From assembly GCF_008692195.1 (NCBI RefSeq), contig NZ_RXOM01000009.1, positions 1 to 64,000 of the forward strand: a stretch of 64,000 nt of DNA, written 5' to 3'. Position 1 is the stretch's first letter, and every line of letters begins with the position of its first letter. The notes under the pieces are model-generated. The model did not search any database, was not told the origin of the DNA, and saw only the letters and a list, made by a program, of their open reading frames with translations. This stretch comes from Salegentibacter sp. R32 (GTDB lineage Bacteria; Bacteroidota; Bacteroidia; Flavobacteriales; Flavobacteriaceae). Below are positions 54,314 through 64,000 of this stretch, one piece after another. A program made the translations under genes and the position numbers.

Positions 54314-55273
54314 ATGAGTTTTTTTAAAAAGATTTTTTCAAAAGAAAAAAAAGAAACGTTAGACAAAGGCCTAGAAAAGTCTAAAGAAAATTTCTTTGGT
54401 AAGCTAAGTAAAGCAGTTGCCGGTAAGTCTAAAGTTGACGATGAAGTTTTAGACGATTTAGAGGAAGTTTTGGTAACCAGCGATGTTGGGGTAAAAACCA
54501 CGATTAAGATTATTGATAGAATAGAAGAGCGTGTGGCCCGCGATAAATATTTAGGCACTTCAGAATTAGATAAGATACTTCGGGAAGAAATTGCCGGACT
54601 TTTAAGTGAAACCGGTTCTGGAGAGGAAACCGAGTTTGTGGTTCCCAGTAAAAAGCCTTATGTGATTATGGTCGTGGGTGTAAATGGTGTAGGAAAAACA
54701 ACGACAATCGGGAAGTTGGCCTATCAGTTTAAAAAGCAAGGCAAAAAAGTGGTACTTGGTGCTGGTGATACCTTTAGAGCGGCTGCAATAGACCAATTAC
54801 AAATCTGGGCAGATCGGGTAGATGTTCCTATTGTAAAACAAAAAATGGGTAGTGATCCGGCTAGTGTAGCTTTTGATACTGTACAAAGTGCTATCAAGCA
54901 AGATGCAGATGTAGTGATTATCGATACAGCAGGAAGGCTTCATAATAAAGTGAATTTAATGAATGAGCTTTCTAAAGTAAAACGGGTGATGCAGAAAGTG
55001 GTAGATAACGTTCCTGATGAAGTTTTATTGGTATTAGATGGATCAACCGGGCAAAATGCTTTTGAGCAAGCTAAACAGTTTACAGCAGCTACTGAAGTTA
55101 CTTCGTTAGCCGTAACTAAATTGGATGGTACGGCAAAAGGTGGAGTGGTGATTGGCATTAGCGACCAATTTCAAATTCCTGTAAAATATATTGGCGTAGG
55201 GGAAGGTATTGAAGATTTACAGGTTTTTAATAAAAATGAATTTGTAGATTCTTTCTTCAAAAAGAGTATTTAA
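54314..55273 (+). CDS. ftsY: signal recognition particle receptor FtsY
   Basis: FtsY (319 residues) docks ribosome-nascent-chain-SRP complexes at the membrane. It has a short basic N-terminus (SFFKKIFSKEKKETLDKGLE), the N domain and the GTPase G domain: VVGVNGVGKTTTIGKLAYQF, GDTFRAAAIDQL, IDTAGRLHNK and VTKLDGTAKGG. The acidic A domain of E. coli FtsY is absent, as in most Bacteroidota. A structured repeat lies in the leader. Confidence 0.95.
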   Translation: MSFFKKIFSKEKKETLDKGLEKSKENFFGKLSKAVAGKSKVDDEVLDDLEEVLVTSDVGVKTTIKIIDRIEERVARDKYLGTSELDKILREEIAGLLSETGSGEETEFVVPSKKPYVIMVVGVNGVGKTTTIGKLAYQFKKQGKKVVLGAGDTFRAAAIDQLQIWADRVDVPIVKQKMGSDPASVAFDTVQSAIKQDADVVIIDTAGRLHNKVNLMNELSKVKRVMQKVVDNVPDEVLLVLDGSTGQNAFEQAKQFTAATEVTSLAVTKLDGTAKGGVVIGISDQFQIPVKYIGVGEGIEDLQVFNKNEFVDSFFKKSI

Positions 55274-55277
55274 AGAT

Positions 55278-55571
55278 ATGCAAGAAAACAGGCCTAAACC
55301 TTTTTCTAAAGAGCGAACAAAAGCTACGATATGTAAGCTTATTTTCTTTTACAGTGTCTTTTTTGTAGTAATGAAAATTATCGCGGTTTTTGATGGCTAT
55401 CCGATGAAGGCTTCATTTATGTTGAGTATTCCTTTTTTACTTTTGGCGTTGTGGGGACTTTTTCAGGTAAGAAAAGACACCTATAGTTGGTTTTATGTAA
55501 TTTTAGGAATCCTCATAGTTTCGGCAATGCGGTATTATGAAGTGATGATTTATAATTATTTAATGGCGTAA
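55278..55571 (+). CDS. small hypothetical membrane protein
   Basis: A 97-residue protein with three hydrophobic helices (LIFFYSVFFVVMKIIAVF, ASFMLSIPFLLLALWGLF, SWFYVILGILIVSAMRYYEV) and a charged, proline-containing N-terminus. No family is recognised. It starts 5 bases after ftsY and is likely cotranscribed; its stop directly abuts the convergent DUF1573 gene. Confidence 0.65.
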   Translation: MQENRPKPFSKERTKATICKLIFFYSVFFVVMKIIAVFDGYPMKASFMLSIPFLLLALWGLFQVRKDTYSWFYVILGILIVSAMRYYEVMIYNYLMA

Positions 55572-56099
55572 TTATTTATTCTCCTCAGGAACGGAATACA
55601 TTAATTTAGCTTTACCATCTACCAATTCTTTTATTCCGTATTTTTCTTTCTTGCTTTGGTAAATTTGTTCATAATCCCTTATCACTAAAGGATCTGGAAC
55701 TACATTGGTAGAAAATTTCACTTCATTGGTTAGCGTATCCCTAATATTGGCGATAATTAAAATATAATGCTCCACATAGCCAATATTTTTAGAACTGTCG
55801 TATTCAAAATTTAAGTAAGCAGATTTGTTAGGTTTTATAGGACGGTCGTAATCGTCTGTAGTGATACAGGCACAACCTGCTTGCACATCTCTTATAATTA
55901 GCGGATATTTTCCCGTATTCGTAAATTTATAGCTTACGTTGAGTGTATCGCCACGCACCACAGGGTAATATTTTCTCACAGGGTCTTCAATGCTCATAGA
56001 AGTAATGGGCATCGCTTCTTGAACCCTTTCTGAGAAGTAATCGCAACTCATTAAAGTGCTTATGAAAAATAAAAATAATATGTAGGGAAGTAATTTCAT
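55572..56099 (-). CDS. DUF1573 domain lipoprotein of the polysaccharide operon
   Basis: A 175-residue lipoprotein (signal ending in FISTLMSC) with a DUF1573/ASH-like immunoglobulin-type domain: SYKFTNTGKYPLIIRDVQ, then AGCACITTDDYDRPIKPNKS. DUF1573 proteins are common periplasmic or outer-membrane-anchored modules in Bacteroidota, of unknown role. It is the last gene of the five-gene minus-strand operon (1 base after the DUF4838 gene), so it probably serves the assembly or anchoring of the exported polymer. Confidence 0.85.
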   Translation of the reverse strand: MKLLPYILFLFFISTLMSCDYFSERVQEAMPITSMSIEDPVRKYYPVVRGDTLNVSYKFTNTGKYPLIIRDVQAGCACITTDDYDRPIKPNKSAYLNFEYDSSKNIGYVEHYILIIANIRDTLTNEVKFSTNVVPDPLVIRDYEQIYQSKKEKYGIKELVDGKAKLMYSVPEENK

Positions 56100-56100
56100 T

Positions 56101-57882
56101 TTAATTAATTATAATTTCATCACAAGCGATTGCATTTTTACTGTTGCTGTTTTTTGGTCGTATAAAAGTTAAGCTAAAATCTCCATCAATTTTATTAAAA
56201 TCTACCGGAATTTCTATCGTTTTTTTCTCTTTTTCTGAAGAAGGTTCAATAGTAACTTTGTTTTCCTGACCATTATTCTTGAAAATTATTTCTGTAGGAA
56301 AATAGATTTGGTGTTTTGGCGCATTTAATAAACCAACTTTTATATGTGTTGCTTCTTTATAGATTTCTTGATTAGGCATTTCAACTTGTAAATCCGCTAC
56401 GGTGCAAATTAGCCAGTTGGTATTGTAATCTAGAAGCCCGTAAGTTCCGTTATTCAGAATTTTTATGTTTGAGTAAGCTTCATCTAATTGTGAACTTGCT
56501 TTTAATTTTTGATGAATAAAGTAATTGGTTTTATCTTTTTGAATGATTTCTTTATTCCACAAATGAATATAATCTGAAATTTTATCATTGGCTTCGTTAT
56601 AATCAGCTATTCCTGTTTTTTCAGCTAATAACTCTAAATTTTTTAGAAGCTTGTTAACTTCCGGTTGAATTGTAATTTTGAAATCTTCTAAAGTCGCATA
56701 ACCGTTCGGCTGAACTCCTAAGTATCGCATTTGCTCTAACTTTAAAAAAGTAGCTGAAAGTAACAAGGCTTGAGTGTTGAAATTATCCTCTAAAGGGGAA
56801 GCTTTTTCTAATTCCGTATAAAATTCATTAAACCTATTAACATCAATATATTTTTTTGTGGCTTCTTGGATTCCACTGTAAATCCCCATTGACTTTTTAG
56901 ATTCGGCAAAATCATCTTGAATACTTAGGTAATAATCACAAATTAATTGACTATAGCTTGAAGGATATCTTTTTTCAACTTCTGTAGAAATAATTTCATT
57001 TAAATCTGAATCTACATCAATTAATAGTTTAGCTATACTTCCCGCTTTTACTTCTTGCATAGCAGAATAGCTTTCACTGCCATTAATGAAAATGCCGGTG
57101 ACACCGTTTTCTTTTAAAAATTTTAAATTCTCCTGAAGGACTTTTAGGTTAGGGTAAAAATCTAGGTAATTATCGTAGTTCAACGTATATTCCCAAACAA
57201 AGATTTCATTTACTTTTTCTTTCCACTTATTGATTTTGGTTTTTAATTCATCAGCTTCCGGGAGTTCTTTGTACATTTTCCCTTCTTGGTAATCAATAGT
57301 GCTAAAAAAAACACCAACGTTTTGGGGTTGTTTTTCTTTAGGCGGATTTTTAACGCTAATGTAAGCGGTGGTGAAAAATTCTTGTTTAGGAAAATCTTTA
57401 GCTAGTTCTGCTAATAAGTTGAATAATGCCGGACTTGCATCTGTTTTGGTGTTTCCTGCGGTTTTGCATTTGTCACATTGGCAAACTAAAGCATTATCGT
57501 TGGGATTAATCATATAGTAGTCATATGATTCTTTCCTTTTTTCAATATTTTCGATAAGGATTTCCTTTAATTCTTCGCTTGAAAAACAGAATTGTTCTTG
57601 ATTTCTTTCACTATCTATTAAAGCATAAACAGATGAATTGGGCTGAATGTAAAATGGAATCCATTTGGGTAAATTATGTCCCCACAATCCCCAAGTTTCA
57701 TCTAACGGTGTGTTCTTATATTCAGCTTTAAATTCTTCAGTATTAGTAACCATTGGGAAATAGGTATCCCGGTATTTAAAACTGAATTCTTTTTTATTTT
57801 GTGCTGAAGAATAATTCATCATGAAAAAACAAAACCAGCATAAAAATGTAAGATTATAATATGTAAACTTTATGTGTTCCAT
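56101..57882 (-). CDS. DUF4838 domain glycosidase-like secreted protein
   Basis: About 593 residues with a signal peptide (FTYYNLTFLCWFCFFMMNYS). I chose the ATG at 57882, one base after the upstream stop; a GTG at 57900 is in frame but less likely. It shows DUF4838 features: INPNDNALVCQCDKCKTAG, GVFFSTIDYQ, LPEADELKTKINKW, WEYTLNYDNYLDFYPNLKVL and FLKENGVTGIFINGS. DUF4838 proteins are thought to be glycoside hydrolase-like. By position it parallels PgaB, modifying or cutting the exported polysaccharide, which is an inference. Confidence 0.85.
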   Translation of the reverse strand: MEHIKFTYYNLTFLCWFCFFMMNYSSAQNKKEFSFKYRDTYFPMVTNTEEFKAEYKNTPLDETWGLWGHNLPKWIPFYIQPNSSVYALIDSERNQEQFCFSSEELKEILIENIEKRKESYDYYMINPNDNALVCQCDKCKTAGNTKTDASPALFNLLAELAKDFPKQEFFTTAYISVKNPPKEKQPQNVGVFFSTIDYQEGKMYKELPEADELKTKINKWKEKVNEIFVWEYTLNYDNYLDFYPNLKVLQENLKFLKENGVTGIFINGSESYSAMQEVKAGSIAKLLIDVDSDLNEIISTEVEKRYPSSYSQLICDYYLSIQDDFAESKKSMGIYSGIQEATKKYIDVNRFNEFYTELEKASPLEDNFNTQALLLSATFLKLEQMRYLGVQPNGYATLEDFKITIQPEVNKLLKNLELLAEKTGIADYNEANDKISDYIHLWNKEIIQKDKTNYFIHQKLKASSQLDEAYSNIKILNNGTYGLLDYNTNWLICTVADLQVEMPNQEIYKEATHIKVGLLNAPKHQIYFPTEIIFKNNGQENKVTIEPSSEKEKKTIEIPVDFNKIDGDFSLTFIRPKNSNSKNAIACDEIIIN

Positions 57883-57883
57883 T

Positions 57884-60760
57884 TTAGAATCTAATTTCAC
57901 AAAGCATGGTTAGCTGATATTGATTTTGAAAATAATCTTGTCTTATTTCATAATTGTACCAGTTTCCGTAGAAACCAAAGGCTACATTTTTATTAACCGG
58001 CCATTGATATCCTGCACCCACCATGGTATGCACAAAATCGAAAAATGTATCGTATTGAAATGCTAATTTTTGGTCGTAGGGAGCTGTACCCACTGAGGCT
58101 ATAAGTTGAACGAACCGCCGATGATATAAATAGTATTTAGACCTAACTACCAAGTTGGTATAGCTATCGTCAAAGTCGGTAAGGTATTGAAATCTGGCAT
58201 TCAACCAAAAATCGTTTATGGTTCTAGAAGCGCCAACTATACCGGTAACCAAGTTTCTGTCATCTTGTAATTTATCGTAACGGGCTCCTAATTCTACTTC
58301 CCAATTGCTTTCTAGATTCTTGAATACAGAAGCTTGTAAACGATGTTTAGGGAAGTATTGTGTTCCCAAAAAGTAACTGGCTTTAGCATAAACTGTCGGG
58401 CTGAAAATATGTTGCCAATCTACATTTAATTGAACCCCGGCACCTTCACTTCTAGCCACATAATTGGCACCAATTCCATATGAATTATTGGTGTAAAACT
58501 TAGTGTAGTGCAAGGTAGCCATTCTATTAACAAACACGGTCGAGTCTGAATCAAATCGAATATAGCTTGCATCAATTTGATTGTCGTATGTTCTGTTGGT
58601 TAAATATTCAAGATGCCGTTTCCATTGCAAGGCTTCTTCAGGAGCAGGTTTGTAATATTTTTGATAATATAAAGCTGAATCATATTCTTTAAGGTTTTCA
58701 TAAACTTCGCCTTTGGCTACTTTTAGATTATCCAACCACGGATATTCCTTTATTTTTCCATTTAAATAAGTTAAAGCCCGTAAGTTTTCGTGTGCTCTTT
58801 TGTAAGCATCTACAAGTTCATTTACGGCAGGATTGTCCTTGGGCATGTAATCTACCGATTTGGTGAAATCTGCATATGCTGCAGTATAAAGCTCCACACT
58901 TTTTTTATACATTCCTCTTTTGTAGTAGGCAATGGCTATAGATTTTTTTATTTCCATATCGTATGGATTCCTTTCGTAAAAAGGTTCTAATAGCGCTATG
59001 GTCCAATCGGTTTTGTAATCTAGTAAGTAAGCATCTGCCAGTTTTAAAGCAATATCTTTGTCGTTAGGGTAAGCTTCTAGGGCTTTTTCACCTAAATTCA
59101 TTGCTTTTTGTTTGTGCTCCATTGCCAGAGCAGCATTAATACTATAAAGGTAAAGCGCTTTGCTGGGTTGTTGTTCTATAAGTTCATCTACTTCTTCTAG
59201 GGCTTGTGCATATTCTTCATTCTTCATTAAATTATTTACATAGATAGATAATTGATAAAGATGAATGTCTTCATATTTTTCAGAATCAGGGTATTCCCTA
59301 GTTAGGTTTCCGGTAATTTCCAGTCCTTCAGGATAGCGTTGTGTTTTAAAATAAATGTTGCTTTTATTTAATAGGTACTCTGGATTATCAGGAAATCTTT
59401 CAATTAAATAATCGGCATACTCCATAGCTTTGTCATACTTTTCTTGTTGCATGGCAATATTATAGAGTTGTTCATTGGCTAAGATTTCCCATTCAGGTTC
59501 CGTTCTTAGTAACAAAAATGCAGATTTTGCTTCATAAAGTTGATTTTGTTCTAAATAGCTTTTGGCTTTTTCAAATTTATTTAATTGATATAAATATTGA
59601 AGTTCTTCATCTTCCGGGTAATAGGAATAAAGTTCTTCTAGGGTTTTGTTGTAATTATTTTCATCTTCCAGTTCTTTATAGAGTGCTAGTTTTTTACTGA
59701 GTAAATCTTTGGAAGTTGGTGTTCTTTCTAAGCCTTTATTAATGTAATATTCAGCGTCTGTATAATATCCTTTTGCCAAAGCGGTTTTTATAATGTAATT
59801 GAGTGCTTCTTGATTGGCAGGATTTTCTGCATATATTTTTTTGTAAATAATATAAGGGTCTGTGTTCTCGTAATAATTGGCCGCTCTGGTTTGAAGATAG
59901 GTGTTCAACTCGCTATATTCATTTAATTTTAAATGTTGCTTGGTATCGTCAAGCAAATTCATAGCATTATTGTATTGACCCAATTCTTCCATGAGGCCAA
60001 TATTTTTTCTTATAATTTGTGGGTCTTCCGGTAATTTTTTAAGAGCAATGGAAGCATAATTTAAAGCTGCATTTTTATCTCCTTTGTTTTCCAATTCATT
60101 TTTAATGAGCATTAAATAGGCTTGTTTATTATCTGGGTCCTCTTCAAGGATAGATTCATAAATACTTTTGATGCTATCGTAATCTTCAGAATTTTTTAAA
60201 TCCCTTCCTTCCTCTTCCAGCATATAGACATAATCTCTTTGTATTTCATTGTCTTCGGGAAAGATTTGCTTTATTCTTTTTAATTCACGTAAAGCTTCTA
60301 CCTCGTTGCCCATTTCTCGGTATAGGTTCATTTTTTTTATCCACAAGCCTTTTTCGTACGGGGTTTGCTCGAGCATTTCATTTACATAACAAATAGCAGA
60401 AGAATAACGCTTGGTTTGATGCTCGACATTCAACAAGTAGAGTAGGGCGGTATAATTTTGTAAGCGTGCATCTGCTGCTTTTCGTAAAATATATCTCGCT
60501 TTATCGTATTGTTTGAGTTCTAAATAACATTTACCTAAATATTCTTGAATATCTACATCATTTGGTGCTTTTTTATTTGCCTGTTTAATGGTCTCAAGGG
60601 CTTTTACGTAGTTCCCCTTTTTTTGTCCCCACTCTTTGGCAACTTCATATAAACTGTCTGATGATGATTTTCTTTTTATTAGTTGACTATGTCCTTCTAT
60701 AGTAGCTAGCAGAAGAAAAACAGGTAATATGATTTTTATTATTTGAAAAATATTTTTCAT
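57884..60760 (-). CDS. TPR protein with YaiO-type outer-membrane barrel (PgaA-like)
   Basis: A 958-residue outer-membrane protein with a signal peptide (IIKIILPVFLLLATIEGHSQ). Residues about 30-690 are tetratricopeptide repeats, more than a dozen, with A-x(2)-Y/L-x-A patterns (for example YLGKCYLELKQYDKARYILR). The last 230 residues are a YaiO-like barrel (IDASYIRFDSD and GIGANYVARSEGAGVQL, ending LTMLCEIRF). TPR plus barrel is the layout of PgaA, the exporter of poly-N-acetylglucosamine. It lies between the glycosyltransferase (20 bases) and DUF4838 (1 base) genes. Confidence 0.88.
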   Translation of the reverse strand: MKNIFQIIKIILPVFLLLATIEGHSQLIKRKSSSDSLYEVAKEWGQKKGNYVKALETIKQANKKAPNDVDIQEYLGKCYLELKQYDKARYILRKAADARLQNYTALLYLLNVEHQTKRYSSAICYVNEMLEQTPYEKGLWIKKMNLYREMGNEVEALRELKRIKQIFPEDNEIQRDYVYMLEEEGRDLKNSEDYDSIKSIYESILEEDPDNKQAYLMLIKNELENKGDKNAALNYASIALKKLPEDPQIIRKNIGLMEELGQYNNAMNLLDDTKQHLKLNEYSELNTYLQTRAANYYENTDPYIIYKKIYAENPANQEALNYIIKTALAKGYYTDAEYYINKGLERTPTSKDLLSKKLALYKELEDENNYNKTLEELYSYYPEDEELQYLYQLNKFEKAKSYLEQNQLYEAKSAFLLLRTEPEWEILANEQLYNIAMQQEKYDKAMEYADYLIERFPDNPEYLLNKSNIYFKTQRYPEGLEITGNLTREYPDSEKYEDIHLYQLSIYVNNLMKNEEYAQALEEVDELIEQQPSKALYLYSINAALAMEHKQKAMNLGEKALEAYPNDKDIALKLADAYLLDYKTDWTIALLEPFYERNPYDMEIKKSIAIAYYKRGMYKKSVELYTAAYADFTKSVDYMPKDNPAVNELVDAYKRAHENLRALTYLNGKIKEYPWLDNLKVAKGEVYENLKEYDSALYYQKYYKPAPEEALQWKRHLEYLTNRTYDNQIDASYIRFDSDSTVFVNRMATLHYTKFYTNNSYGIGANYVARSEGAGVQLNVDWQHIFSPTVYAKASYFLGTQYFPKHRLQASVFKNLESNWEVELGARYDKLQDDRNLVTGIVGASRTINDFWLNARFQYLTDFDDSYTNLVVRSKYYLYHRRFVQLIASVGTAPYDQKLAFQYDTFFDFVHTMVGAGYQWPVNKNVAFGFYGNWYNYEIRQDYFQNQYQLTMLCEIRF

Positions 60761-60780
60761 TGTATATAAATATACTTGTA

Positions 60781-62187
60781 TTAGGTTTCAACTCCTTTTC
60801 TTGTCATGGTTCCCCAAGCTAATTCCTTAGATGATAAGAATTTAAGGTAACCTCTTATTCCAAAAAAAGTAATCATTGGGTGGTACAAAAATGGTTCCAG
60901 AAATGCAACTAAGATAAGTTTTAATACCTCGGAAAAATTCTTGTAATATTTGAAAGTAATATTATCCCAAATGACCACTAAAATTGAAATCATCACTGCA
61001 AAACTATAGGAATAGAGAAAGACCAATCCAGCCAAATCCCAATTGATTTTTCCGAATAATATTAAGTAGATGACAGAAATTACACCTCCTAACTCTATAA
61101 TAGGAGCTAAAAACTCGAAAACAAAAGCATAAGGGAAAACTATTAATCCCATCCTTTTAAACTTCGGGTTGAATAATATTTTACGGTGAACTACGAATAA
61201 CTGTACCAATCCGGCAGCCCAACGTGTACGCTGTCTCGATAAAATTTTGGCATTAGGAGGGCCTTCTGTCCAACAACAAGATAACGGAATATAATCTATC
61301 TTATATTTCAATTTATTGTTAATCATATAGCTAGCCATTCGGGTAATAAGGTCCATATCTTCTGCGTGTGACCTTCCATCGTACCCACCCGACCTAATTG
61401 CTATATCTTTATCAAACATTCCTAAACCTCCAGAAACATTGGGAACACAGTTTACAAGTGACCATCCCATTTTACTTAATAAATACGCACGGATGTACTC
61501 AAGTTCTTGAAATCTTGGAATAAGGTCTTTAGGAGGTCTTACCCTTGTTATCATTCCTTTTTTTACTTCACAGCTATTTACCATTCTTAAAGTAGCACCT
61601 ACCGCAATTACCTTTTTCTTTTCTACAAGAACGGGCTTAATCATTTTTAATAGTGTATTCCTAGCAAGAATACAATCTACATCTGTACATAAAAAGTAAG
61701 GGAAAACAGAGGCGTTAATACCTGCATTGGAAGCATCTGCCTTAGTACCACCATTTTCTTTATCAACAATGGTAAGTTTGTCATACTCTGGATTGGTAGA
61801 TTTAAAAATTCGCTTAAAAGGTTTGGTTTTAATCCGTTCTATGTAAGCATAAGGTACTTCTACTAGCTCAAATTCTTCAATAAGCTTTTCTAGGGTTTTA
61901 TCTTTACTTCCATCATTAACAATAACTACTTCAAATAAAGGATATTCTAAAGTAAGCAAAGAGTGAACGTTGGTGATAATTGTTTTTTCTTCATTGTAAG
62001 CGGGCGCTACTACCGATATCCCTGGTGCTATTTCAGAATTGTATAAAGTTTCGTCGTCAAGATTTGAATTATAGCTTTTATATCTTATAATAGTAATGAT
62101 AGAAAAAATGGCTAACATTAAATAGCTTGCTATCAATACACTGCTGTAAAAGAAAATAAAATATTCAAAAAAGTATTCTCCAACCAT
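60781..62187 (-). CDS. processive family 2 glycosyltransferase (PgaC-like)
   Basis: A 468-residue membrane glycosyltransferase. There is an N-terminal helix pair (about 10-35), the GT-A domain with VVAPAYNEEKTI (59-70), IVNDGSKD (D92), GGTKADASNAG, TDVDC (DxD, 169-171) and AEDMDL (D277), then QRTRWAAGL (319-327) and three to four C-terminal helices. QxxRW after the ED motif marks processive synthases such as PgaC, cellulose and hyaluronan synthases. The sugar is unknown. It follows the HEAT-repeat gene by 5 bases. Confidence 0.92.
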   Translation of the reverse strand: MVGEYFFEYFIFFYSSVLIASYLMLAIFSIITIIRYKSYNSNLDDETLYNSEIAPGISVVAPAYNEEKTIITNVHSLLTLEYPLFEVVIVNDGSKDKTLEKLIEEFELVEVPYAYIERIKTKPFKRIFKSTNPEYDKLTIVDKENGGTKADASNAGINASVFPYFLCTDVDCILARNTLLKMIKPVLVEKKKVIAVGATLRMVNSCEVKKGMITRVRPPKDLIPRFQELEYIRAYLLSKMGWSLVNCVPNVSGGLGMFDKDIAIRSGGYDGRSHAEDMDLITRMASYMINNKLKYKIDYIPLSCCWTEGPPNAKILSRQRTRWAAGLVQLFVVHRKILFNPKFKRMGLIVFPYAFVFEFLAPIIELGGVISVIYLILFGKINWDLAGLVFLYSYSFAVMISILVVIWDNITFKYYKNFSEVLKLILVAFLEPFLYHPMITFFGIRGYLKFLSSKELAWGTMTRKGVET

Positions 62188-62192
62188 TAAAA

Positions 62193-63320
62193 CTATTTAA
62201 ATTTAATTAGCTGAGTTTCGATGTGATTAAATATAGTTCTGTCGAAACCACTTTGTCCAGATTTTAAATCTTCAAAAAGATTATATTTAGCTTTGTAATT
62301 ATAGGTAACTAAAGCAACTTCCTTTTTTAATTGAACGTTTTTAGCATCTTCAAAAGCTCTTCGGAGAAAATCTACAGCATTTCCCGTATTCATTTCCCCA
62401 ATACTTTCTATGATGGCCATTTGGCATTCCTCATGCTCTGTAAAAAAATGGTTCATTAAGTATTCTTCATATTCTGTAGCGTGAATTTTACCTAAACTTT
62501 TATAGGCTTCCTTTCTAACTTTATGGTTGTGATGTTTTAATTTATCAAATAAAATTTCTTTGGTATCTTCTTGTTTAAAACTACCGGCGGCCTTAATAAG
62601 GAATATGATTAAAGAAATATTATCTGAATAATTAATCCATTTTCCTAAATTACTTAATTGGTTATTTTCTTTATGTATTTTAAGCAACCTCATTAAGTTA
62701 ATTTCGTCCCAATAACTTAAATCACCTTTAATCTCGTCTAAAAAACGATAAGGGTCATTGGTACTTAAATGTAGGTGTGAAAATCTGGCTTCCCGTCTTA
62801 ACTCTTTATTTTTACTGTAAGCTAATGGAATTACCTTTGCATCTAATTCTTTTAAATCTAATAGTTGCAGTTTCTGTAATACCTTAACTTTAGTACTGTC
62901 TTTAGAGAAATTCAATTTTTTCTCTAGATAGTGATCAAATTGTAAAGCATTTACAATTTTCGAATAGCCTGCTGATTTTTTCTTAGATTTAAATTTTATT
63001 TGCAGTAAAACATCTATGGCTAAAGTGATATTTTCACTATTTAGCTTGCCTACAATTTTTACATATTCCTTTTCAATCTCAGATTCAGTATAATTTTTTT
63101 CGCCAAAAAGGATGTCCTTAAATAACTTTTCAATTTGTGGTTTTAGTTTTTTTCGATGATCAGATATCTTCTTGTAGTAATACCTCATGAAGCTGAGATA
63201 GATAAACAATGTTATAATAAGACTTAAACTAAATAAAATTGAAATTATTACAATCTGTGTGATAGGAGCAAATGTCCTAATTTCATAGTATAGATTAACG
63301 AAAAAGTCGAAAATTTCCAT
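62193..63320 (-). CDS. HEAT-repeat membrane protein of the polysaccharide operon
   Basis: A 375-residue protein with one N-terminal membrane helix (QIVIISILFSLSLIITLFIY, about 22-45) followed by about 330 cytoplasmic residues of helical HEAT-type repeats (LRREARFSHLHLS, HNHKVRKEAYKSLGKI, HEECQMAIIESIGEMN, NVQLKKEVALVTYNYKAK). It is the first gene of the operon. It may scaffold or regulate the synthase at the membrane, as PgaD or c-di-GMP-binding partners do elsewhere. That role is an inference. Confidence 0.85.
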   Translation of the reverse strand: MEIFDFFVNLYYEIRTFAPITQIVIISILFSLSLIITLFIYLSFMRYYYKKISDHRKKLKPQIEKLFKDILFGEKNYTESEIEKEYVKIVGKLNSENITLAIDVLLQIKFKSKKKSAGYSKIVNALQFDHYLEKKLNFSKDSTKVKVLQKLQLLDLKELDAKVIPLAYSKNKELRREARFSHLHLSTNDPYRFLDEIKGDLSYWDEINLMRLLKIHKENNQLSNLGKWINYSDNISLIIFLIKAAGSFKQEDTKEILFDKLKHHNHKVRKEAYKSLGKIHATEYEEYLMNHFFTEHEECQMAIIESIGEMNTGNAVDFLRRAFEDAKNVQLKKEVALVTYNYKAKYNLFEDLKSGQSGFDRTIFNHIETQLIKFK

Positions 63321-63666: not shown

Positions 63667-64000
63667 ATGAGAACCAAGTCGTTAAAGAAGAACAAGATTA
63701 ATGTAGTTACTTTAGGATGTAGCAAGAACATCTACGATTCTGAAGTATTGATGGGACAGCTGAAAGCCAATAATAAAGAAGTTGTTCATGAGCAGGAAGG
63801 AAATGTAGTGGTGATTAATACTTGTGGCTTTATTGACAATGCCAAAGAACAGTCTGTGAATACCATTTTAGACTTTGTTCAGAAAAAAGAAGAAGGCTTG
63901 GTCGATAAAGTTTTTGTAACTGGTTGCTTATCTGAACGCTATAAACCCGATTTGCAACACGAAATTCCTAATGTAGACCAATATTTTGGTACTACAGAAT
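63667..64000 (+). CDS. rimO: ribosomal protein S12 methylthiotransferase RimO, partial
   Basis: Only the first 111 codons are in the window; the gene continues past the right edge. RimO is a radical-SAM enzyme that adds a methylthio group to an aspartate of ribosomal protein S12. The visible N-terminal domain has the three cluster-binding cysteines in VVTLGCSKNIYDSEVLMG, VVINTCGFIDNAKEQSV and VFVTGCLSERYKPDL. SEVLMG distinguishes RimO from MiaB. Start: ATG at 63667. Confidence 0.93.
   Translation, partial: MRTKSLKKNKINVVTLGCSKNIYDSEVLMGQLKANNKEVVHEQEGNVVVINTCGFIDNAKEQSVNTILDFVQKKEEGLVDKVFVTGCLSERYKPDLQHEIPNVDQYFGTTE

Follow-up and report, generated by a model that had tools for sequence, protein, structure and literature searches.

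The operon and its genes

We analyzed a 64 kb stretch of DNA from Salegentibacter sp. R32 (positions 1 to 64,000 of NZ_RXOM01000009.1; hereafter the window), which is part of contig C8 in a genome of 4.08 Mb, and focused on five minus-strand genes between positions 55572 and 63320 (Table 1). These genes encode a HEAT-repeat protein, a family 2 glycosyltransferase (GT2), a protein that joins tetratricopeptide repeats (TPR) to a YaiO-type barrel, a DUF4838 protein and a DUF1573 protein. The original prediction described them as closely spaced genes of one candidate system with these domains, and our analysis bears the description of the genes out: all five open reading frames are present in the reading-frame list of the window, and every product scores above the cut-off of its Pfam family (HEAT_2, 39.7 bits against 27.7; Glycos_transf_2, 69.3 against 23.3; YaiO PF19413, 71.1 against 23.9; DUF4838 PF16126, 135.7 against 26.6; DUF1573 PF07610, 61.1 against 26.1). 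The genes are closely packed, with gaps of 5 bases (HEAT/GT2), 20 bases (GT2/TPR-YaiO) and 1 base (DUF4838/DUF1573). The listed GTG start of the DUF4838 gene overlaps the TPR gene by 17 bases; an internal ATG at residue 7 (base 57882), which would leave a gap of 1 base, is the likelier start. Because the same gene order is found again in other genomes, the arrangement goes beyond chance, and the conserved neighborhood on which the prediction had been staked is indeed present in related genomes.

Table 1. Positions of the operon genes and of the two genes that border its insertion site (window coordinates)
Feature	Position	Strand	Basis
HEAT-repeat protein, 375 residues	62193..63320	-	Pfam HEAT_2; hydropathy; one-to-one GT2 pairing across 99 genomes
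Processive-type GT2, putative membrane synthase, 468 residues	60781..62187	-	Pfam/NCBIfam; motifs DVD, AEDMDL, QRTRW; hyaluronan synthase structure match
TPR superhelix with predicted YaiO outer-membrane barrel, 958 residues	57884..60760	-	PF19413, TIGR04390; AlphaFold2 model
DUF4838 protein, signal-like N-terminus, modeled hexosaminidase-like TIM barrel and C-terminal beta-sandwich	56101..57900	-	PF16126; model; Foldseek
DUF1573 putative lipoprotein, 175 residues	55572..56099	-	PF07610; LMSC lipobox by eye
ftsY, left border of insertion site, outside the system	54314..55273	+	SRP54 domains; empty-site comparison
Presumed rimO-like gene, truncated by the window end, right border of insertion site	63667..63999	+	Reading-frame list; empty-site comparison

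Pairing of the HEAT protein with GT2

To compare the neighborhoods quantitatively, we searched 99 related genomes with the GT2 protein (E-value cut-off 1e-50) and, separately, with a HEAT alignment of 13 rows, 11 of them from the genomes searched (cut-off 1e-10), scoring at most 16 or 20 candidates per genome. The GT2 query found 29 of the 99 genomes, with 32 loci after one split gene was joined, and the HEAT alignment found the same 29 genomes with 32 matches, each of which adjoins a GT2 locus by its coordinates; in six of these the matched part is the front of a long reading frame. At these cut-offs, none of the 99 genomes carried either gene alone.

We then assembled 110 loci, consisting of a set of 31 regions and 79 of the best 80 of at least 342 GT2 relatives in species genomes; one locus (L068) was dropped as a copy of another (L036), while L130 and L140, whose GT2s are 98.7% alike, were both kept. 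Both locus sets were picked by GT2 similarity, and are not a sample of all GT2s. A HEAT gene lies upstream of the GT2 gene in 104 of the 110 loci, called by our own profile in 94 (E 1e-4) and by Pfam HEAT in 10 (all 10 of those tested, including L121, which an earlier profile run had also picked up). The median gap between the two genes is -4 bases and the gap is at most 150 bases in 96 of the 104; in L071 a second GT2 gene sits between them, and contig ends cut three loci (L080, L093, L100). Three further loci (L114, L141, L144) encode probable HEAT-GT2 fusions. The fused protein of L144 has both HEAT and GT2 matches, scoring 30.0 bits for HEAT_2 (cut-off 27.7, with no single stretch under E 0.001); L141 scores 21.4 bits, below the cut-off, and L114 has no Pfam HEAT_2 match, its front half resembling that of L141 (E 1e-44) and, weakly, that of L144 (E 2e-6). 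The L141 front half is likewise related to the L144 protein. The phylum labels of the 44 loci placed in a tree cover 11 bacterial phyla and one archaeal bin, which may be mis-binned.

As controls, the HEAT profile found nothing beside four other GT2 matches in the window's own genome, and it was equally without a match in one pSymA region and in the regions of E. coli that hold yai, pga, bcs, opg and arn. At the gene level, then, a distinct GT2 family is shown to have the HEAT protein, whose gene lies directly upstream of the GT2 gene in the window, as its standing partner. The prediction had cast the HEAT protein as a replacement for PgaD; what we observe is that it accompanies a separate GT2 family that occurs across many phyla, and that it has no PgaD match. 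We found no description of a HEAT-GT2 synthase pair in the literature searched, a body of work that mostly leaves out subscription papers.

The HEAT protein has a single hydrophobic segment near its N-terminus. Because lysine and arginine are absent from residues 1-14 and number seven in residues 56-75, its sequence suggests that the HEAT solenoid is cytosolic, behind one N-terminal membrane helix.

Two variations were seen among the relatives. Tandem GT2 genes, both with full motifs, follow one HEAT gene in L071, L072, L073 and L101, which suggests a two-synthase version. The HEAT partners of L055, L056, L058, L060, L062, L064, L098, L102 and L104 carry several hundred extra C-terminal residues; in the L055 protein (914 residues) Pfam recognizes the HEAT part only.

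The candidate synthase

The GT2 protein combines DVD, AEDMDL and QRTRW motifs with five hydrophobic segments, and the synthase motifs are invariant in all 13 aligned GT2s. It thus carries the signature of processive GT2 enzymes (DxD, ED and QxxRW with transmembrane helices), and is predicted to be processive itself. Among the HEAT and GT2 proteins tested, none scores above the cut-off of an NCBIfam enzyme model. A GT2 profile matched 34 sequences of solved structures, among which hyaluronan synthases are the only ones matched through most of the profile (positions 15-401 of 478); cellulose synthases match at positions 260-398.

We also built a GT2 tree of 51 rows, comprising 45 HEAT-partnered GT2s (the window's included) together with PgaC, YaiP, BcsA, OpgH, ArnC and a NodC candidate. 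The end branches of the HEAT-partnered GT2s do not exceed 1.6, while the reference GT2s lie on branches of 5 to 10. The references branch off from two weakly supported points within the tree, and the tree does not prove a single HEAT-partnered clade.

The predicted exporter

The TPR-YaiO protein belongs to the YaiO family by both models examined (PF19413, as above; TIGR04390, 66.5 bits against 32). Its AlphaFold2 model has a predicted local distance difference test score (pLDDT) of 87.4 and a predicted template modeling score (pTM) of 0.49, leaving the domain orientation open; it shows 39 helices after a signal-like one (about 20 TPR pairs), followed by the strands of a barrel. The 50 Foldseek matches listed are of the solenoid type and do not place the barrel.

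We counted matches to a barrel-only profile, with E. coli YaiO among its seeds, within 5 kb of the GT2 gene, and found a YaiO barrel at none of 11 Bacillota loci versus 66 of 99 other loci (Fisher p 2e-5; 67 of 99 when that seed is left out). A less strict YaiO profile, which misses E. coli YaiO and also matches the TPR tails of sulfatase-type proteins, gives 75 of the 99 non-Bacillota loci, with the same direction. The absence of the barrel near Bacillota loci and its frequency elsewhere agree with a polymer for which an exit through the outer membrane is required only when the cell has two membranes. The window operon unites a candidate synthase, a putative periplasmic TPR scaffold and a predicted outer-membrane barrel, and it is likely that it secretes a synthase-made polysaccharide.

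The DUF4838 and DUF1573 proteins

The model of the DUF4838 protein, built from 18 aligned sequences, is confident (pLDDT 90.4, pTM 0.87) and shows a hexosaminidase-like TIM barrel with a C-terminal beta-sandwich. Foldseek places BT0459 (6q63) and glycoside hydrolase (GH) families GH84, GH115 and GH138 first, followed by GH20 enzymes and lectin-like modules. The DUF4838 profile also matches 6q63, which its PDB entry names a beta-hexosaminidase (E 8e-10); the match runs through two outer stretches and not through the barrel center. The relative L072 has a GH20b domain over cut-off. The protein had been proposed to stand in for the PgaB deacetylase; the model is nearest to TIM barrels of the GH20/GH84/GH115 type and there is no deacetylase match, so that the enzyme appears to be of another kind. 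It shares the TIM-barrel fold with the GH163, GH20 and GH84 hexosaminidases; it differs from them in being encoded beside a GT2 synthase, and its hexosaminidase-like activity is predicted from the model.

Asn136 was considered as the mark of a dead enzyme, since the pair D135-N136 aligns with the DE motif of a GH20 enzyme in a weak match (E 0.64). We rejected this reading: D-N also occurs in all four ordinary DUF4838 proteins inspected from related genomes. At this site D-D or D-E is found in 4 of the 18 DUF4838 locus members. A lipobox-like LMSC was identified by eye in the DUF1573 protein, and its gene lies beside the DUF4838 gene in 12 of the 18 loci with DUF4838.

Receivers and alternative modifying enzymes

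The surroundings of the HEAT-GT2 pair are variable. A receiver-domain gene lies within 4 kb in 81 of the 110 loci, and a stand-alone receiver (up to 160 residues) lies near 64; Pfam confirms the receiver domain in seven of the seven such proteins tested, three of which also have GGDEF. A nearby receiver gene is therefore frequent in the relatives, not universal.

DUF4838 occurs within 6 kb in 18 of the 110 loci and a sulfatase-fold enzyme in 25, with both in L082 only. Loci of other versions have an enzyme of the sulfatase/LtaS fold instead; that of L048 has one NCBIfam match, to lipoteichoic acid synthase, at 45.3 bits against a cut-off of 970.

Other arrangements were seen as well. In L052, L053, L057, L061, L094 and L097 the GT2 is fused to a sulfatase/LtaS-fold domain (1142-1145 residues; by Pfam in L052, by our own profile in the others), a natural synthase-modifier fusion. 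A protein of about 575 residues with an LVIVD match follows the GT2 in place of DUF4838 or sulfatase in L045 (2983-4704) and L047 (10730-12478), both by Pfam, and in L050 by profile. Two Bacillota loci, L115 (5498-7714) and L119 (4829-6952), have an upstream protein of 707-738 residues with no Pfam match at E 0.001.

Relation to known polysaccharide systems

It is instructive to compare the operon with E. coli PgaABCD, onto which the original prediction mapped its roles. Both place a membrane GT2 synthase, an outer-membrane protein (a porin in Pga) and a glycan enzyme (periplasmic in Pga, putatively so here) in one operon, and this part of the mapping stands: synthase-dependent secretion is consistent with a processive-type membrane GT2, a TPR-plus-barrel protein and a secreted protein resembling glycosidases. 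On a stronger reading, the operon would be a divergent Pga system making poly-beta-1,6-N-acetylglucosamine, with the HEAT protein as PgaD and DUF4838 as PgaB. The resemblance of the TPR-plus-barrel layout to PgaA speaks for this, as does PgaC_IcaA (TIGR03937), the best NCBIfam match of the window GT2 and of all three GT2s tested from other phyla. However, the window GT2 reaches only 107.9 bits against a cut-off of 422.3, the exporter scores 39 bits against 366.65 for PgaA (TIGR03939), and none of the five proteins matches PgaD or the PgaB deacetylase in Pfam or NCBIfam at E 0.1, and we reject both replacements as claims of homology. In addition, the branch leading to PgaC measures about 5 changes per column, against end branches of at most 1.6 in the 45 HEAT-partnered GT2s, and the pga region was among those in which the HEAT profile found nothing. 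By the models tested, the operon, with its HEAT partner, YaiO barrel and DUF4838 protein, does not belong to the Pga systems, and we regard a divergent Pga system as unlikely.

The E. coli yaiS-yaiP-yaiX-yaiO cluster likewise combines a GT2 with a YaiO barrel, and YaiO groups with our barrel profile when used as a seed. In contrast, the HEAT profile finds nothing there, YaiP lies on a long branch, YaiO is only 258 codons long, and the cluster has a putative deacetylase (YaiS) and no DUF4838. Xanthomonas xagABC(D), compared by description only, also contains a GT2 gene and serves to make a biofilm polysaccharide whose chemistry is not known, according to PMC3609779 and PMC3528676. In the xag-like clusters of iron oxidizers, as described in an excerpt of PMC4643136, a BcsB-like gene and not a HEAT gene lies beside xagB, which speaks against identity with the window system.

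Genomic site of the operon

We compared the site in 16 genomes of the window's genus, its own included, and found FtsY in 15. The site is empty in 10 of these 15, with ftsY adjoining rimO in the same fetched piece, while in four genomes (G000, G002, G004, G012) the operon adjoins ftsY instead. In G009 the operon and ftsY are on different contigs; in G010, where FtsY was not found, the operon lies beside a gene of 443 residues on a short contig. DUF4838 matches occur in 6 of the 16 genomes, exactly the six with the DUF4838 version of the operon. Since the genus contains both empty ftsY-rimO sites and operon-bearing ones, the operon counts as an accessory element inserted between these two genes.

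A small protein of 97 residues without a Pfam match is encoded between ftsY and the operon (window 55278-55571), and adjoins ftsY in 12 of the 15 same-genus pieces (own included). The HEAT genes of G002 (contig C3) and G010 (contig C38) each have one in-frame stop inside or beside the HEAT match, reflecting either a longer frame or a broken copy.

Discussion

Together, these observations lead us to propose, with a probability of roughly 70%, that the operon serves the synthesis and export of a surface polysaccharide through a synthase-dependent pathway, with the HEAT protein as a second synthase subunit. The membrane GT2, by analogy with its family, would polymerize sugars from a cytosolic nucleotide-sugar donor and extrude the chain through the inner membrane. 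The HEAT protein, tethered by a single helix and holding its solenoid on the cytosolic side, would bind the GT2, an interaction that we infer from the gene partnership and the probable fusions. In many relatives it may pass on to the GT2 the state of a receiver-domain protein encoded nearby, which we consider a fair hypothesis. In the periplasm, the TPR superhelix would guide the chain to the outer membrane and its YaiO barrel, and DUF4838 may trim or edit the chain as a hexosaminidase-like enzyme, with the DUF1573 lipoprotein as a putative accessory of the DUF4838 version.

Several results weigh against this proposal. The GT2 profile obtains its best E-values from short matches at the N-terminal end, to a variety of GT2 enzymes. 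With 14 strands, the predicted barrel has fewer than PgaA, BcsC and AlgE, and a wide pore is therefore not assured. No YaiO barrel is matched within 5 kb at 33 of the 99 non-Bacillota loci, some of which may be explained by contig ends, distant barrels or other exporters. The Foldseek TM-scores of the DUF4838 model are low (0.15-0.34 on the query). As for the relay, our own profile finds no receiver gene in the 64 kb window, and a receiver lies within 4 kb at only 4 of the 18 loci with DUF4838; 14 have none at that distance (in L074 and L076 receiver matches lie further downstream), and a receiver relay is therefore not general in the DUF4838 version.

Could the product instead be a glycan that is lipid-linked or stays in the cell wall or periplasm and does not enter the matrix as a released polymer, with processing at the surface by the barrel and DUF4838? 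LtaS and other sulfatase-fold enzymes build or decorate membrane-linked polymers, and versions with such an enzyme exist, as in L048 with its LtaS match and in L052, where the enzyme is fused to the GT2. Some of the short structure matches of the GT2 are lipid-sugar enzymes, for example dolichol-phosphate mannose synthase. Against this stand the processive-type motifs of the GT2, the finding of the YaiO barrel only where an outer membrane is expected, and the tree, where the lipid-linked sugar transferase ArnC has one of the two longest branches, although its placing is unsure. The original prediction had named closest characterized relatives that make lipid- or protein-linked glycans as the outcome that would speak against a secreted polymer; on this point, the nearest NCBIfam model is PgaC and the structure matches through most of the profile are hyaluronan synthases, with many shorter matches to varied GT2s. 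A retained glycan seems to us improbable.

A last alternative arises from published expression data. In Polaribacter dokdonensis MED152 co-cultured with Micromonas, a GT2 gene (03905) was up 8.8-fold and a DUF4838 gene (03915), labeled GH163, was up 18.5-fold, according to a table in PMC9870897; the tags in that table step by five, and one gene probably lies between the two. A Polaribacter genome in our set (L069) has the order HEAT-GT2-TPR/YaiO-DUF4838-DUF1573, and MED152 probably carries the same operon. That DUF4838 is a catabolic GH163 endo-hexosaminidase and the operon serves uptake of algal or host glycan, as this label, the induction by the alga and the cleavage of N-glycan antennae by a GH163 enzyme of Bacteroides thetaiotaomicron (available text of PMC10154615) might suggest, is very improbable: none of the five genes is SusC/SusD-like by Pfam, the conserved core is a GT2 with HEAT, and the authors of PMC9870897, in the portion available, place both Polaribacter genes outside polysaccharide utilization loci. 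BT1044, considered as a GH163 enzyme, was not used; the available text of PMC10154615 sets it beside GH18 enzymes.

Beyond the window, we tentatively suggest, at slightly less than even odds, that HEAT and GT2 form an unrecognized class of two-subunit polysaccharide synthase, found in 11 bacterial phyla or more. In this class a HEAT solenoid tethered to the membrane would couple a phospho-receiver directly to the synthase, the periplasmic modifiers (DUF4838, LtaS-like and others) would be interchangeable, and the DUF4838 version would mostly have lost or moved its receiver. BcsA and PgaCD are under the control of cyclic di-GMP; if our suggestion is true, HEAT-receiver coupling would be the protein-phosphorylation counterpart of that control, and the receiver genes found nearby point to a two-component switch that would act directly on a polymer synthase. 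If HEAT is a fixed GT2 subunit, many pairs annotated as HEAT repeat and family 2 glycosyltransferase would mark one unnamed exopolysaccharide class. The alga-induced GT2 and DUF4838/GH163 genes of Polaribacter, read as glycan use, may reflect polymer production, and not glycan use only.

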